DNA from: Sulfitobacter marinus
GTDB taxonomy: Bacteria; Pseudomonadota; Alphaproteobacteria; Rhodobacterales; Rhodobacteraceae
Assembly: GCF_900116285.1 (NCBI RefSeq)
Contig: NZ_FPAJ01000002.1
Location: 496,001-560,000, forward strand
Reading direction: 5' to 3'
Length of the DNA stretch: 64,000 nt
Every line of letters starts with the position of its first letter. Position 1 is the first letter of the stretch. The translations under genes were made by a program, and so were the position numbers. Shown one piece after another: positions 3,514-11,431 of this stretch. The notes under the pieces are model-generated. The model did no database searches, was not told where the DNA came from, and saw nothing but the letters and a program-made list of their open reading frames with translations.

Positions 3514-3546
3514 TAATGCGTGGTTATATGGAAATATGGAAAAATC

Positions 3547-4002
3547 ATGCTTGATGACGAAGATAGGCGCATTTTGCGTCATTGGCAGGGAGACGCGGGG
3601 CTAAGCCCGGGTGAGTTGGCCGATCGGGTGGGGTTGACCGCTGGCAAGGTCGCGCGGCGCATTGTGCGCATGCAAGAGGCAGGCATTGTCGAGGGCGTCG
3701 GGATGAGCGTGGATTGGGCGGCCCTTGGCTATAGTGTTGAGGTGTCGCTGCGGATCACACTGGATAAGACCCAGGGCAATGCGTTTGATGCGTTTCTGGT
3801 CGCAGCACGCGACGTATCAGAAGTGATTGAAATCCAGACGTTTCTGGGGCGCGTTGACGTGCGCCTGTCGATCATTGCCCGCGATATGGCGCATTATCAG
3901 TCGATTTACCGTGGCAAGATCCTGACCCTTCCCCATATCGCCGATATTGAGGCGTTGATGCATGTGGCGCGGATCAAATCAGACGAGGCGCTGCCGCTAT
4001 GA
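3547..4002 (+). CDS. Lrp/AsnC-family transcriptional regulator (first of a pair)
   Basis: A 151-residue regulator: winged helix-turn-helix over residues 1-55 (LSPGELADRVGLTAGKVARR) followed by a RAM (regulation of amino-acid metabolism) ligand-binding domain ending in the typical TLPHIADIEALMHVARIK. Lrp/AsnC proteins form dimers to octamers and respond to amino acids. I preferred the ATG at 3547 (MLDDEDRRIL, a standard family N-terminus) to an upstream in-frame start at 3520. Its stop overlaps the next Lrp gene by four bases, implying translational coupling and possibly hetero-oligomers. The two proteins are clearly diverged in sequence. The family is sure; the effector and targets are unknown. 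Confidence 0.9.
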   Translation: MLDDEDRRILRHWQGDAGLSPGELADRVGLTAGKVARRIVRMQEAGIVEGVGMSVDWAALGYSVEVSLRITLDKTQGNAFDAFLVAARDVSEVIEIQTFLGRVDVRLSIIARDMAHYQSIYRGKILTLPHIADIEALMHVARIKSDEALPL

Positions 4003-4460
4003 TCCAGCTGGACGAGATTGACCATCATCTGATCCGGTCACTGGCGCGGGATGCCACACAAAGTGCCGGGGCTTTGGGGCGGCATTTGGGGTTATCCCAG
4101 CCTGCCACATGGCGGCGGATCAAACGGCTTGAAGATGCGGGCATTTTGCGCGGTAAGCACTTGCGCCTGAACCGTGAGGCCTTGGGTTTTGGCGTGACGG
4201 TGTTTCTGGGGGTCAAGCTGGCCACCAAAGGGCGTGTGAGCCTTGAGGATTTCGAGCGTGCGGTCACTGCGATCCCCGAAGTGCAAACGGTTGAACATGT
4301 TTTAGGGCTTTATGATTACCGTTTGCGGGTTGTCGCGCGGGATCTGGCCGATTTTGAACGTGTCTTGCGGCGGCGGATTATGACCTTGCCGGGGGCCGGG
4401 GCAGTTGAGGCCAATGTGCTGCTAAGTGAAGAACGTCTTGCGGGGCCATTGGGCCTATAA
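3999..4460 (+). CDS. Lrp/AsnC-family transcriptional regulator (second of a pair)
   Basis: A 153-residue protein with an N-terminal helix-turn-helix (LGRHLGLSQPATWRRIKRLEDAGI, split by its turn near residue 35) and a C-terminal RAM domain containing VLGLYDYRLRVVARDLADFE and the TLPGAGAVEANVLLSEER end. Its ATGA start overlaps the stop of the first Lrp gene. About 48 bp downstream lies a class V aminotransferase with a strong AAAAGGAG ribosome site, so all three may be one operon concerned with amino-acid or glyoxylate metabolism. That functional link is inferred from position only. Confidence 0.9.
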   Translation: MIQLDEIDHHLIRSLARDATQSAGALGRHLGLSQPATWRRIKRLEDAGILRGKHLRLNREALGFGVTVFLGVKLATKGRVSLEDFERAVTAIPEVQTVEHVLGLYDYRLRVVARDLADFERVLRRRIMTLPGAGAVEANVLLSEERLAGPLGL

Positions 4461-6871: not shown

Positions 6872-7519
6872 CTAGCCCGTGATCCGCCCGAGAAAAGCGC
6901 TAAGATCATCCGTGTGGAAATGAATGTGATCGGCGGCCTCGGGCTCAGCGGCCACATGCACCGTGCCCATGCCCATGGCGTGCGGCTCCGCCAGATTGCG
7001 GGGGTCATCTTCGAACATGACCGCCTTGGTGGCGTCCAGCTTGTCAGCGGTGAACACATGCTCGAACGCGGCGCGTTCGGGTTTGGGTAAAAACTGTGCA
7101 TGTTCAACGCCATAGATCGCGTCAAACAGATCGGTCAAACCGCGGGCTGCAACCACTTTTTCGGCATAGGGTGCGGTGCCATTGGTGTAGATAATGCGCC
7201 GTCCGGGCAGGGCGCGGATGCGATCGGCCAGCACGGGGTCGGGCGCCAGCGCGTCAAAGGAAATGTTGTGCACATCATGCAGATAGGGGGCCGGGTCCAT
7301 ATCATGTTCGCGCATTAGCCCGGCCAGCGTTGTGCCATAGCTGTGCCAGTAATGTTTGCGCAGGTAATTGGCGCGGGCGTGGTCCACATCAAGGGCATTC
7401 ATCACCCAATGGGTCATCCGCTGTTCTATCTGGTCGAACAGACGCGCCGAGGGCGGGTAAAGCGTGTTATCCAGGTCAAAGACCCAAGTATTCACGTGAG
7501 AAAAAGCGTGCTTTGGCAT
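6872..7519 (-). CDS. HAD-superfamily pyrimidine 5'-nucleotidase
   Basis: A 215-residue haloacid-dehalogenase hydrolase of the SDT1-like pyrimidine 5'-nucleotidase group. Motif I FDLDNTLYP (nucleophile and general acid aspartates) is at residue 15, motif II YTNGTAPY near 107, the motif III lysine in LPKPERAAF, and motif IV FEDDPRNL near 168. Predicted to dephosphorylate pyrimidine nucleoside monophosphates in the cytoplasm. It stands immediately upstream of the UbiH-type gene and divergent from the GntR regulator across about 100 bp. Confidence 0.88.
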   Translation of the reverse strand: MPKHAFSHVNTWVFDLDNTLYPPSARLFDQIEQRMTHWVMNALDVDHARANYLRKHYWHSYGTTLAGLMREHDMDPAPYLHDVHNISFDALAPDPVLADRIRALPGRRIIYTNGTAPYAEKVVAARGLTDLFDAIYGVEHAQFLPKPERAAFEHVFTADKLDATKAVMFEDDPRNLAEPHAMGMGTVHVAAEPEAADHIHFHTDDLSAFLGRITG

Positions 7520-7619: not shown

Positions 7620-8273
7620 ATGACCGCGCCCAGACCCGGACCGACAGATGCCTATGCCATGATCCTTGAGGCGATCGATTTGGGCACCTATAGACCAGGC
7701 GATCGTTTGGTTGAAAGCGAGCTGGCGGAACGGTTCGGTGTTTCGCGCACCCCAATTCGCGAGGCATTACAACGGCTTGAGACACAATCCCTGCTGACCC
7801 GCGATGGCCGTAGTCTGATTGTGGCGTCGTTGGATCACAACCAGACCGCCGAGCTGTATGTTGTACGCGGAGAGTTGGAGGGGCTGGCCGCGCGGCTTGC
7901 TGCGCGTCATGCGACTGTCGAAGAAGTCCGCGTACTGCGCGATATGGTCGAGGCAGATAACGACCTGCGCGACGATCCGGCGGCTTTGGCGCGGGCGAAC
8001 CGGCGGTTTCACAGGCAAATCCATTTGGCGTCCCACAACAGGTATCTGGTGCAGCAATTGGATTTGGTACATCGGTCGATGGCATTGATGGCGACATCGT
8101 CGCTCGCGGTTGAGGGGCGCGGCCATATTGCCCAAGCCGAGCATGACAAGATCGTGCGTATGATTGAACAGCGTGACGAGGATGGCGCGGACGAAGCGCT
8201 GCGTTTGCATATTTCGGTGGCCTTCACGACCCGCCTCAAACAAGAAGCTGCGCGGCGCGAAGAAGAGGGCTAA
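7620..8273 (+). CDS. GntR-family regulator with FCD ligand-binding domain
   Basis: 217 residues: N-terminal winged helix (ESELAERFGVSRTPIREALQ near residue 35, the classic GntR recognition region) followed by an all-helical FCD domain with the metal-ligand pattern of FadR-type regulators (RANRRFHRQIHLASHN near 125 and HDKIVRMIEQRDEDGADEA late). Such proteins usually repress catabolic or transport genes in response to a carboxylic acid. No target is adjacent in the same direction; its 3' end shares a CTAA with the end of the convergent glycosyltransferase gene, so both stop codons overlap. Confidence 0.9.
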   Translation: MTAPRPGPTDAYAMILEAIDLGTYRPGDRLVESELAERFGVSRTPIREALQRLETQSLLTRDGRSLIVASLDHNQTAELYVVRGELEGLAARLAARHATVEEVRVLRDMVEADNDLRDDPAALARANRRFHRQIHLASHNRYLVQQLDLVHRSMALMATSSLAVEGRGHIAQAEHDKIVRMIEQRDEDGADEALRLHISVAFTTRLKQEAARREEEG

Positions 8274-10189
8274 CCGGCGGGAACGGGCGTTCGTGCGTCG
8301 GATTGTTCTTCGGTTTTGTGGGGGACGCCGTGTTCGGTTTTGTCCCAGTAAAACGGGTCAAAGATGAACTCGTATAGCGCCTTATACGCGGCGAATGTGC
8401 CCAGTATAAAATAAAACGGCAAGCCGAACGCCCAAGGTATCAAGTGTCTGTGTTTACTGCCGCGCACTGCGCGAATGGCGATGGAAATATTCAGGAGCTC
8501 TGCGAAAATAAAGTAATAGAACAACCCTTTAAGTATCTGAGCGCCGAGGACGGTTTCGACAGGGTGGGACAGGCCCACCAAGGTAACGCAAAAAGACCAA
8601 AGCAAAGGCGCACAAAGGAATTGGCTTACTGTGGCCAAGAACAAGATTTGCAGCCCGAGAAAACGCAGAAACCCCACCTGCTTTATCAGCTTGAGCGGCT
8701 GGCGCATGTGCACGCACCATGTCGTCAAAAAACCCTTGAGCCAGCGGGAACGCTGCTTGACCCACGGCCAGGCGCGAAAATTTGCCTCCTCATAGGTGAC
8801 GGTGGGCAAAAGGTCGGTTTTATAGCCGTGCCGGGCCAATCTGACCCCCAGATCGGCATCTTCGGTCACGTTATGGGCGTCCCAGGCGCGCAGTTCCTCA
8901 AGCACGCTGCGGCGGAAAAATAGCGTTGTCCCGCCCAAGGGAACAATAAGCCCCAGCCGCGCAATGCCCGGCAGAACCACGCGCCACCATGCGGCATATT
9001 CGATGGTAAAACAGCGTGAAATCCAATTGGTGCGCGCGTTGTAATAATCAAGCATCCCCTGAACGCATACGACATTCTTGGGGGCGTGGGCAAAATGCTG
9101 AATAATGCGATCGATTTGATCTACTTCGGGTGCGTCCTCGGCATCCCAGACGCCAATAATGCTGCCTTTACAAAAATCCAAAGCATAATTCATAGCCCGA
9201 GGTTTTGTGCGCAAATTATTCGCCTGCGGAACCTCGATCACGTCAAACCATGCGGGCAGCGCGGTACGGGCAATGGTGTCGCGGGTCATATCATCGCCTT
9301 CTTCAAGCACCAGCATGATCTGAAGCAATGATTTGGGATAGGTCAGTTTTGCCAGCCGCGTGATCAAGGCCCCCGCAATTTCCTTTTCCCGGAACAGGGG
9401 GACAAGGACGGAAACATAGGGCCGAGAGATTTGATCCGGTTCGGGTCCGATGTCGAGTGTCGGGCGAGGGGGAAGCTTGGGTTCAAAGACATGGGTGAAC
9501 AGGGCGATTGTACGCAAGGAGACGGTCATGATGCTGCTGCAAAGCGCCCATAAGAGGATAGTGGTAAAGCCCCAAGCAGGTTCCAATATCAGTACGATTG
9601 CCAGTAAGGCCAAGATGCCCACGGACCATGCGCGCCGGCCTCTGGCGTCTTCGCGCCAGGTGCGACAGCTTTCAATCGGGGGCACGCGAGTGGCGGCGCG
9701 TTGGGCAAGGTCTGCGCCGTAAAGTGCTGTTATACTTTCGGAAATCTGTTTCTTGTCGGCAACGACCGGCAGTAGGCTCACCCCTGGGGAGGCGAGCTGA
9801 CGGGCAATCTGTTCAAATTGATCCGGGTTGCTGATGGCGATCATAATCGTGTCACCCAAGGACCGCCACGGAACGATGCCATACTTCAAGCAATCAAGCG
9901 CATCCAGATGCTGCGCCATGGTGCGTTTTGGCGGATCAACGGCAAGATCAATATGTTGTAGGTTATATTGTGTCGCCAGCGCGGCACATAGCTGCGCCGG
10001 GGTTATCGTACCGCTGGCGATCAGGCACTCGCCCAGCGGGACGTTCAGGCGTTCTTGCTCTTGCAGGGCGCGCACCAGATCGGCCTGATCAATGGCACCC
10101 GAATTCACCAGTATCCGGCCCAAGGGCAGATGCGATTGGGCCCGGGTTGCCGGTTCGGGCGTGGTAAACTTTAGATGCAGGTCGCTCAA
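8270..10189 (-). CDS. Membrane glycosyltransferase family 2 with N-terminal MshEN domain
   Basis: 639 residues. Residues about 20-165 form an MshEN (type II secretion ATPase N-terminal) domain: two LGxx[LVI][VI]xxG...Lxx.LxxQ motifs, 23 residues each and five residues apart, as in cyclic-di-GMP-binding MshEN domains. Two hydrophobic segments follow (near 195-235), then a GT-A catalytic region (about 250-480) with VSVLVPLFRE, WDAED, TEDADLG and the QRSRW motif characteristic of processive synthases, and further membrane helices to the C-terminus. It is likely an inner-membrane polysaccharide synthase or transferase gated by c-di-GMP; sugar and product are unknown. The start is a TTG, since an in-frame TAA lies five codons upstream and no ATG/GTG precedes the MshEN domain. 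The SD is inside a hairpin (10197-10216). It follows carA on the same strand after 72 bp. Confidence 0.9.
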   Translation of the reverse strand: MSDLHLKFTTPEPATRAQSHLPLGRILVNSGAIDQADLVRALQEQERLNVPLGECLIASGTITPAQLCAALATQYNLQHIDLAVDPPKRTMAQHLDALDCLKYGIVPWRSLGDTIMIAISNPDQFEQIARQLASPGVSLLPVVADKKQISESITALYGADLAQRAATRVPPIESCRTWREDARGRRAWSVGILALLAIVLILEPAWGFTTILLWALCSSIMTVSLRTIALFTHVFEPKLPPRPTLDIGPEPDQISRPYVSVLVPLFREKEIAGALITRLAKLTYPKSLLQIMLVLEEGDDMTRDTIARTALPAWFDVIEVPQANNLRTKPRAMNYALDFCKGSIIGVWDAEDAPEVDQIDRIIQHFAHAPKNVVCVQGMLDYYNARTNWISRCFTIEYAAWWRVVLPGIARLGLIVPLGGTTLFFRRSVLEELRAWDAHNVTEDADLGVRLARHGYKTDLLPTVTYEEANFRAWPWVKQRSRWLKGFLTTWCVHMRQPLKLIKQVGFLRFLGLQILFLATVSQFLCAPLLWSFCVTLVGLSHPVETVLGAQILKGLFYYFIFAELLNISIAIRAVRGSKHRHLIPWAFGLPFYFILGTFAAYKALYEFIFDPFYWDKTEHGVPHKTEEQSDARTPVPAG

Positions 10190-10196
10190 CCGAGAA

Positions 10197-10216
10197 TCCC
10201 CTTAGATGCAAGGGGA
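10197..10216 (-). promoter_or_regulatory. Hairpin enclosing the Shine-Dalgarno of the glycosyltransferase gene
   Basis: A perfect 7-bp inverted repeat, TCCCCTT / AAGGGGA with a 6-nt loop. Read on the minus strand, the 3' arm AAGGGGA is the only SD-like sequence before the TTG start and is spaced seven bases from it, so the folded RNA would hide the ribosome site. No T-run follows, which argues against a carA terminator. Confidence 0.6.
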
Positions 10217-10261: not shown

Positions 10262-11431
10262 CTATGCGGTCTCAAGCGCGCGTTCGGCCATCGCAGCGGC
10301 GAAACGTTCAAACAGGTAAAAGCTGTCTTGCGGGCCGGGGCTTGCCTCGGGGTGGTGCTGGACGGACCAGACCGGACGGCCTTCCATGCGGATTCCGCAG
10401 TTCGACCCGTCAAACAGCGACTGATGGGTTTCGACAACGCCTTGGGGCAGGGATTGTGCATCGACCGCAAAACCGTGGTTCATCGACGTGATCTCGACCT
10501 TGCCGGTTTCGATGTCCTTGACGGGGTGGTTGGCACCGTGATGGCCGTGGCTCATCTTGATTGTGCCACCGCCAAGAGCGAGGGCAAGCATCTGATGACC
10601 AAGGCAAATCCCGAACACCGGAAGGTCGGTCTTTGCGATGACTTCCTTGATCATGGGAACGGCGTAAGCGCCTGTCGCCGCCGGATCGCCGGGGCCGTTG
10701 GACAGAAATACGCCATCGGGATTATGCGCCATCACATCTTCATATGTGGCGGATGCAGGCAGCACAGTCACGTCGCAGCCAGCCGAGGCAAGACAACGCA
10801 GAATGTTACGCTTGGCACCGTAATCCACGGCAACTACCTTGTGTTTGGCGTCGGTTTGCGGGGCGTAACCGTCGGGCCAGGCCCACCGCATCTCGTTCCA
10901 GCGGTAGGATTGTGCGCAAGTCACGTCTTTGGCCAGATCGGCCCCTTCGAGGCCTGCAAAACTGCGGGCGGCTGCGACCAGTGCTTCTATGTCGAAATTG
11001 CCGTCCGGGTCATGGGCGAGGGCGGCATGAGGTGCGCCTTGCTGGCGGATGGCGCGGGTCAGGCGACGCGTATCGACGCCGCCGATTGCGATGCGGCCCC
11101 GGCTGGCCAGCCATTCGGATAGCGGCTGAACCGAGCGCCAGCTGCTGGGGTCGGTCGGCATCCATTTCACGACCATGCCTGCGGCGACCGGATCACCGGT
11201 TTCGTCGTCTTCAGGATTGGTGCCCGTGTTGCCAATATGTGGGAAGGTAAAGGTGACGATCTGCCCGGCATAGGACGGATCGGTCATGATTTCCTGATAG
11301 CCGGTCATCGCGGTGTTGAAACACAGCTCTGCCACGGTTTGCCCGGTTGCGCCAAAGCCCATGCCGTAAAAAATCGATCCGTCCGCAAGTGCTAGGCAGG
11401 CGGTCGGGCGGGTGGATGCGGGCGCAGTCAT
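10262..11431 (-). CDS. carA: Carbamoyl-phosphate synthase small (glutaminase) subunit
   Basis: Hydrolyses glutamine and channels ammonia to CarB for carbamoyl phosphate, feeding arginine and pyrimidine synthesis. 389 residues, the family's normal length: N-terminal CarA-specific domain with GYQEIMTDPSYAGQIV, then a class I glutamine amidotransferase domain with the nucleophile in VFGICLGHQM near residue 270 and the catalytic His/Glu in QHHPEASPGP near 352. carB is not in the window. An SD GGAGG precedes the ATG. A TTGACC-17-TAGATT promoter is visible upstream. Confidence 0.98.
   Translation of the reverse strand: MTAPASTRPTACLALADGSIFYGMGFGATGQTVAELCFNTAMTGYQEIMTDPSYAGQIVTFTFPHIGNTGTNPEDDETGDPVAAGMVVKWMPTDPSSWRSVQPLSEWLASRGRIAIGGVDTRRLTRAIRQQGAPHAALAHDPDGNFDIEALVAAARSFAGLEGADLAKDVTCAQSYRWNEMRWAWPDGYAPQTDAKHKVVAVDYGAKRNILRCLASAGCDVTVLPASATYEDVMAHNPDGVFLSNGPGDPAATGAYAVPMIKEVIAKTDLPVFGICLGHQMLALALGGGTIKMSHGHHGANHPVKDIETGKVEITSMNHGFAVDAQSLPQGVVETHQSLFDGSNCGIRMEGRPVWSVQHHPEASPGPQDSFYLFERFAAAMAERALETA

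Follow-up and report, generated by a model that had tools for sequence, protein, structure and literature searches.

MshEN domains fused to glycosyltransferases were noted in 2016 (PMC5013675), and one such protein, NfrB of Escherichia coli, is a characterised glycosyltransferase controlled by cyclic diguanosine monophosphate (c-di-GMP) whose MshEN domain is C-terminal (PMC8669469, PMC8669472). Here we analyse a gene of opposite domain order in a 64,000-nucleotide stretch of the Sulfitobacter marinus genome (contig NZ_FPAJ01000002.1, positions 496,001 to 560,000), referred to in its full length as the window. The gene, at 8270..10189 on the minus strand, encodes an MshEN domain followed by a glycosyltransferase family 2 (GT2) core. 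An earlier reading of the bare DNA (the original prediction) had called its product a putative c-di-GMP-gated polysaccharide synthase; it allowed that such fusions may be known, as they are, and held that their control was not described, which is too strong for the kind given what has been shown for NfrB. A search of the open-access literature by titles and the beginnings of abstracts found no paper on the roseobacter branch; one may exist elsewhere. What kind of enzyme is this? We assign a probability of about 0.66 to a glycan synthase of the XagB/NfrB kind: a processive-type GT2 enzyme of the inner membrane that c-di-GMP switches on through an MshEN clamp. The fold, the conserved motif and catalytic residues, the fixed place of the gene and the diguanylate cyclase genes of the host are the computational observations behind this reading.

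NfrB, a c-di-GMP-activated glycosyltransferase known from the glycan receptor of phage N4, likewise unites a GT2 core bearing DxD, TED and QxxRW with MshEN in one inner-membrane protein (PMC8669469). Its motif I also opens with Pro-Leu-Gly (L136), and BLASTP over the MshEN part gives 37.4 bits. It differs in that MshEN is C-terminal rather than N-terminal, in being encoded with outer-membrane NfrA and YbcH, both without a match in 109 relatives' loci, and in a glycosyltransferase that aligns only over residues 387-472 (29%); moreover, its own motif I departs at the second G and Q, while its motif II keeps Arg. The likeness to XagB is one of annotation, the JGI calling three homologues (P0004, P0093 and P0103) 'glycosyltransferase XagB'. 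The Xanthomonas protein is a putative glycosyltransferase with a part in the biofilm of an rpfG mutant (PMC3609779). It belongs to the xagABCD operon, whereas the Sulfitobacter gene has carA on one side and the convergent GntR gene on the other, with no operon partner recognised (XagA, XagC and XagD were not searched). BcsA, at about 17% identity, reads c-di-GMP through a C-terminal PilZ domain. Vibrio cholerae MshE and Thermus thermophilus PilF share the whole MshEN fold and both motifs, but there the domain regulates pilus ATPases and the motifs open with Arg (MshE) or Lys/Leu (PilF GSPII-B). Sinorhizobium meliloti BgsA is alike in being a c-di-GMP-activated, cellulose-synthase-like protein without a predictable c-di-GMP domain, and differs in that it reportedly has its own novel c-di-GMP-binding domain (PMC5567048). 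New here are the order opposite to NfrB, the double-proline motif and the orphan, fixed locus beside carA.

The sensor and the synthase core

The features of the gene are given below in window coordinates. Conservation counts refer to a family alignment of 229 sequences (the query, 108 locus proteins and 120 database proteins; some are redundant, leaving 133 after weighting).

8270..10189, minus strand: MshEN-GT2 fusion gene, 639 amino acids (aa), TTG start
10197..10203, minus strand: AAGGGGA, putative ribosome-binding-like site, 7 bases 5' of the TTG
9719..10132, minus strand: MshEN domain, both subdomains, residues 20-157
10055..10126, minus strand: MshEN motif I, PLGRILVNSGAIDQADLVRALQEQ, residues 22-45
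9968..10039, minus strand: MshEN motif II, PLGECLIASGTITPAQLCAALATQ, residues 51-74
9485..9664, minus strand: two long helices in the model's secondary structure, residues 176-235, joining sensor to catalytic domain; probable transmembrane pair, membrane placement presumed
8720..9427, minus strand: GT2 catalytic core, residues 255-490
9293..9295, minus strand: D299, first catalytic aspartate by family analogy, 229/229
9134..9145, minus strand: DAED, DxD-type motif, residues 349-352 (D349 228/229, D352 229/229)
8858..8866, minus strand: TED, residues 442-444, 229/229
8741..8755, minus strand: QRSRW (QxxRW motif), residues 479-483 (Q479, R482 and W483 in 229/229)
8360..8698, minus strand: C-terminal helices in the model's secondary structure, residues 498-610; probable channel part, membrane placement presumed

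The two consecutive motifs and five-residue spacer (ERLNV) of the original prediction stand, but its motif length of 23 residues does not; the motif has 24, as in Wang 2016. Against the consensus RLGxx(L/V/I)2xxG(L/V/I)2xxxxLxxxLxxQ, 24 residues in two copies with a 5-residue spacer, the pair matches 18 of 22 positions when the first is scored as R/K/L, and misses at P22, A32, P51 and T61. A chance motif was rejected on two grounds, shuffling and profile scores: the best of 2000 shuffles of residues 1-170 scored 12/22 (mean 8.2), the NCBIfam c-di-GMP motif model NF053729 scores 54.5 bits over residues 22-74 (cut-off 38), and Pfam MshEN scores 42.5 bits over residues 75-161, the C-terminal subdomain (cut-off 23.1). 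In an AlphaFold2 model of the 639-aa protein, with a predicted local distance difference test score (pLDDT) of 89.8, residues 20-157 superpose on c-di-GMP-bound MshE (5htl_B, 139 residues) with a root-mean-square deviation of 1.9 Å over 137 residues, giving the two-subdomain MshEN fold. Domain search and structure prediction thus agree with the predicted placement of MshEN ahead of the GT2 core. We file the protein under the MshEN fold and call it only a probable c-di-GMP receptor.

The start of the gene matters for this assignment. One database copy, P0001, has 612 aa, begins later and loses motif I. Because P0002-P0004 and P0006-P0010 all have 637 aa, the late start looks like a mis-called one. 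P0005 and P0015 also begin late (608-612 aa together with P0001) and lack the first MshEN motif. Start-site errors of this kind would conceal the sensor.

The catalytic half is recognised by Pfam Glyco_trans_2_3 (87.3 bits, above the cut-off), and model residues 200-639 match cellulose and hyaluronan synthases. All four marks of a processive GT2 enzyme, D, DxD, TED and QxxRW, are present and conserved in 228-229 of the 229 sequences. Closer assignments were rejected: PgaC/IcaA poly-N-acetylglucosamine synthase (TIGR03937, 59.8 bits against a cut-off of 422.3), BcsA cellulose synthase (CelA, 45.7 against 699.1, with no PilZ match in the protein or its own genome) and NfrB (PRK11234, 50.8 against 1170, the match being confined to residues 18-132 and the order of glycosyltransferase then MshEN being absent).

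How might c-di-GMP act on such an enzyme? If it works as NfrB and BcsA do, the MshEN domain at its cytosolic N-terminus would hold a single c-di-GMP clamped between motifs I and II, chiefly through stacked leucines and hydrogen bonds to the glycine backbone and without an arginine lid. Binding would move the unit of MshEN and linker relative to the catalytic domain, so that the active site opens; in BcsA, PilZ does this from the opposite end. The synthase would then add sugars from a nucleoside diphosphate sugar, probably a uridine diphosphate (UDP)-sugar, to a growing chain that would pass through the synthase's own membrane helices. We infer ligand binding, activation rather than inhibition, a polymer and an export path, and we keep the predicted gating by an N-terminal receiver as the best reading by analogy, its domain and fold parts having been borne out. 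The synthase would reveal whether an MshEN domain whose two lid positions are both proline can bind, and whether such a domain can gate a synthase from the N-terminal side.

Conservation, distribution and host c-di-GMP genes

L105, a short open frame, was left out of the family alignment, and P0001, P0005 and P0015 were kept though they score 9-10 from their late starts. A second set, A1, holds 70 hand-chosen sequences at 25-88% identity to the query, L065 and L078 being excluded for a stop in the fetched range. Mean entropy in the family alignment (n=229) is 0.94 bits at the 22 motif positions against 2.17 bits for the rest of residues 22-74 (p = 6e-6), and 0.75 bits in the catalytic core. 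LG, the second G, the leucines and Q are kept at both motifs, residue 67 being mostly V or I. W108 of the MshEN C-subdomain is present in 229/229 sequences and in at least 90% of A1, the more diverse set; it may touch the synthase part. The synthase evolves fast: its identity in L040-L114 is 46-53%, against 80-86% for carA. In six homologues (L137, L138, L066, L103, L106 and L113) the motif has decayed and the synthase is retained, a natural set for the consequences of lost sensing.

The closest named relatives (P0003, L035 and L039) place the host in Sulfitobacter. A full-length gene is present in 34 of 35 other same-genus genomes; the remaining one, G017, an assembly of about 850 contigs, has a 32-residue piece only. 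Across 58 Sulfitobacter genomes, MshEN is found in 57, PilZ in one and GGDEF in all 58. At the level of the family, 221 of 248 sampled genomes hold a homologue (E <= 1e-60, a count that does not require an intact MshEN) and 56 hold PilZ. Matches occur in 41 of 385 genomes of the class (E <= 1e-50), and 14 of the 28 class-level loci (L137-L164) have no recognisable motif pair (score at most 11), some being matched over the glycosyltransferase part only. The S. marinus genome itself encodes one MshEN, three GGDEF and two EAL proteins, and no PilZ was found in it. Two of the three GGDEF proteins carry GGEEF or GGDEF with RxxD at I-site spacing; in the third, a GGDEF-EAL protein, a pattern search did not detect the GGDEF signature. 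Two GGDEF genes of opposite orientation are separated by about 5 kb (G000:C1:146238-152078, L134), and similarly spaced pairs occur in many genomes of the genus.

Why should a widespread synthase of this kind matter? Roseobacters make c-di-GMP, often without the usual PilZ receptor; in Dinoroseobacter shibae, for example, no PilZ-domain gene was identifiable (PMC6473078). A synthase with a fixed place and an intact MshEN scaffold offers a testable gene for c-di-GMP action in abundant marine bacteria. With PilZ and MshEN as the only receptor domains counted (degenerate GGDEF/EAL, transcription factors and CckA were not searched), the synthase stands as a good candidate main effector of c-di-GMP, one among possibly several, in a lineage poor in PilZ. 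The fuller proposal, that the carA-linked synthase is the main effector of Sulfitobacter and of many PilZ-less, diguanylate cyclase-bearing roseobacters, and makes an attachment glycan under the control of an arginine-free double-proline pocket, is one we put forward only tentatively.

The neighbourhood

The place of the gene was compared across 109 loci, of which genomes of the same genus supplied 29 and named genomes 80. Three neighbours are conserved:

10262..11431, minus strand: carA, encoding the small subunit of carbamoyl-phosphate synthase; same strand as the glycan synthase gene and 72 bp upstream of it
7620..8273, plus strand: convergent GntR/FCD regulator, overlapping the synthase 3' end by 4 bp; no shown link
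6872..7519, minus strand: HAD-type pyrimidine 5'-nucleotidase (189.3 bits against a cut-off of 142.9); no shown link

carA lies directly upstream on the same strand in 108/109 loci (the exception is L097), and the convergent GntR gene downstream and the pyrimidine 5'-nucleotidase each recur in 106/109. YqeY is present in 83/109, missing neighbours being partly due to short flanks, and an FAD enzyme and an aminotransferase are also conserved in many loci. From the carA stop to the start aligned with residue 1, the distance is 60-119 bp in 97 of the 110 loci compared, a set that includes two copies from the S. marinus genome. No terminator-like site is listed in the carA-synthase gap of the window.

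The original prediction had proposed a check of neighbouring genes in relatives for exopolysaccharide export. Among 13 window neighbours (26-20601), Pfam recognised no polysaccharide or export gene; their domains are housekeeping or regulatory, and one, at 1338-2285, is an EamA-type transporter. Five exporter-type queries (NfrA, YbcH, two BcsB-domain proteins and one SlipAM-domain protein) gave no tblastn match (E 1e-3) in the 109 relatives' loci, of which 70 are longer than 13.7 kb; distant forms could escape such a search, and beyond these queries the relatives' flanking genes were compared with proteins from the window alone. Within this scope a local export operon was not found in the window or these loci; in the S. 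marinus genome, the search for exporters extended no further than the L132 cluster described below. Elsewhere in the window, two Lrp/AsnC-type regulators lie end to end at 3520-4460, upstream of a class-V aminotransferase gene, and a phosphoglucomutase/phosphomannomutase-family gene at 1-1213 is truncated by the window edge. We take the latter to resemble GlmM, which would supply UDP-N-acetylglucosamine.

Alternative readings and related clusters

Does the sensor still bind its ligand? If the MshEN domain had lost c-di-GMP and become a structural or docking module, the synthase would be controlled otherwise. Several points favour this and weigh against our preferred reading. The proline that the original prediction saw before LG is real in both motifs (P22, P51), where Arg (or Arg/Lys/Leu, PMC11731258) is expected. 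An Asp of the C-subdomain through which MshE and PilF contact c-di-GMP has not been retained; its position, about residue 121 as placed by offset, is Asn here and, after weighting, Arg in 64% of the family. The first Arg of MshE stacks on guanine (PMC5013675), Arg9 and Gln32 are called important, and XpsE has lost binding (Wang 2016). Motifs have also degenerated within the GT group, to 11/22 in the L127 paralogue, 10 in L137 and 8 in L138. Yet LG, the second G, the leucines and Q are conserved at both motifs, which argues against a mere scaffold, since a scaffold would not need them, and XpsE had lost several such positions (G11V, L29R, G40L, L54H, L58C and Q61V). Changes of R9 in MshE seemingly cost at most fivefold, in the same paper that calls Arg9 and Gln32 important (PMC5013675). 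Proline at one motif is compatible with binding, because NfrB (Pro in motif I when translated from E. coli K-12) and PilF GSPII-C carry it yet bind. The MshEN part of NfrB has a dissociation constant of 1 uM (PMC8669469), and GSPII-C, with Pro at one of three motifs (P335), binds at about 0.5 uM, the source not stating which motif pair holds the ligand (PMC11731258); these measured cases do not extend to Pro at both motifs. PilF GSPII-B, whose motifs open with Lys and Leu, binds at 6 nM (PMC11731258), and the NfrB change G491L, at the Gly beside Pro-Leu, abolishes infection (PMC8669472). Motif decay as the cause of the prolines was rejected: 190 of 229 relatives have Pro at the head of each motif while the remaining motif positions are kept, and the double proline before LG is, as far as the alignment tells, a lineage trait. 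The doubt about affinity is lessened by NfrB motif I, P335 and family conservation, yet not removed, and we regard loss of binding as unlikely.

Could the product be something other than a secreted polymer? A c-di-GMP-controlled transferase placing one or a few sugars on a lipid or other membrane acceptor seems to us rather doubtful. The protein retains DxD, TED and QxxRW, by which PMC8669469 recognises processive glycosyltransferases, the matches to BcsA and hyaluronan synthase extend over the C-terminal helices, and the 34%-identical paralogue in L127 has an adjoining BcsB-domain partner. The conserved place beside carA (108/109 loci, 60-119 bp away in 97/110) and the recurrence of the HAD neighbour, which scores above the pyrimidine 5'-nucleotidase cut-off (106/109), speak for yet another arrangement, in which the three genes form a group for the supply of uridine triphosphate or UDP-sugar and c-di-GMP control is secondary. 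But unrelated neighbours are conserved too (GntR in 106/109; the FAD enzyme and the aminotransferase in many loci), so the carA link may be plain core synteny, and the intervening GntR gene is oppositely oriented; we consider this grouping quite improbable. Both the lipid-acceptor and the pyrimidine-linked readings can be reconciled with c-di-GMP control.

Related gene clusters were seen elsewhere in Sulfitobacter. The S. marinus genome has a separate polysaccharide cluster at about 103-109 kb of G000:C8 (L132:6146-11772), where an NAD-dependent epimerase, a BcsB-domain protein, a GT2 without MshEN and a SlipAM-domain protein, probably of the outer membrane, stand in a row. In another Sulfitobacter (L127:4708-12922), the 34%-identical MshEN-GT paralogue adjoins its BcsB-domain partner; downstream follow what look, read by eye, like a histidine kinase and a response regulator. 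Glycosyltransferases of 32-34% identity also occur in G003, G018, G026 and G030.
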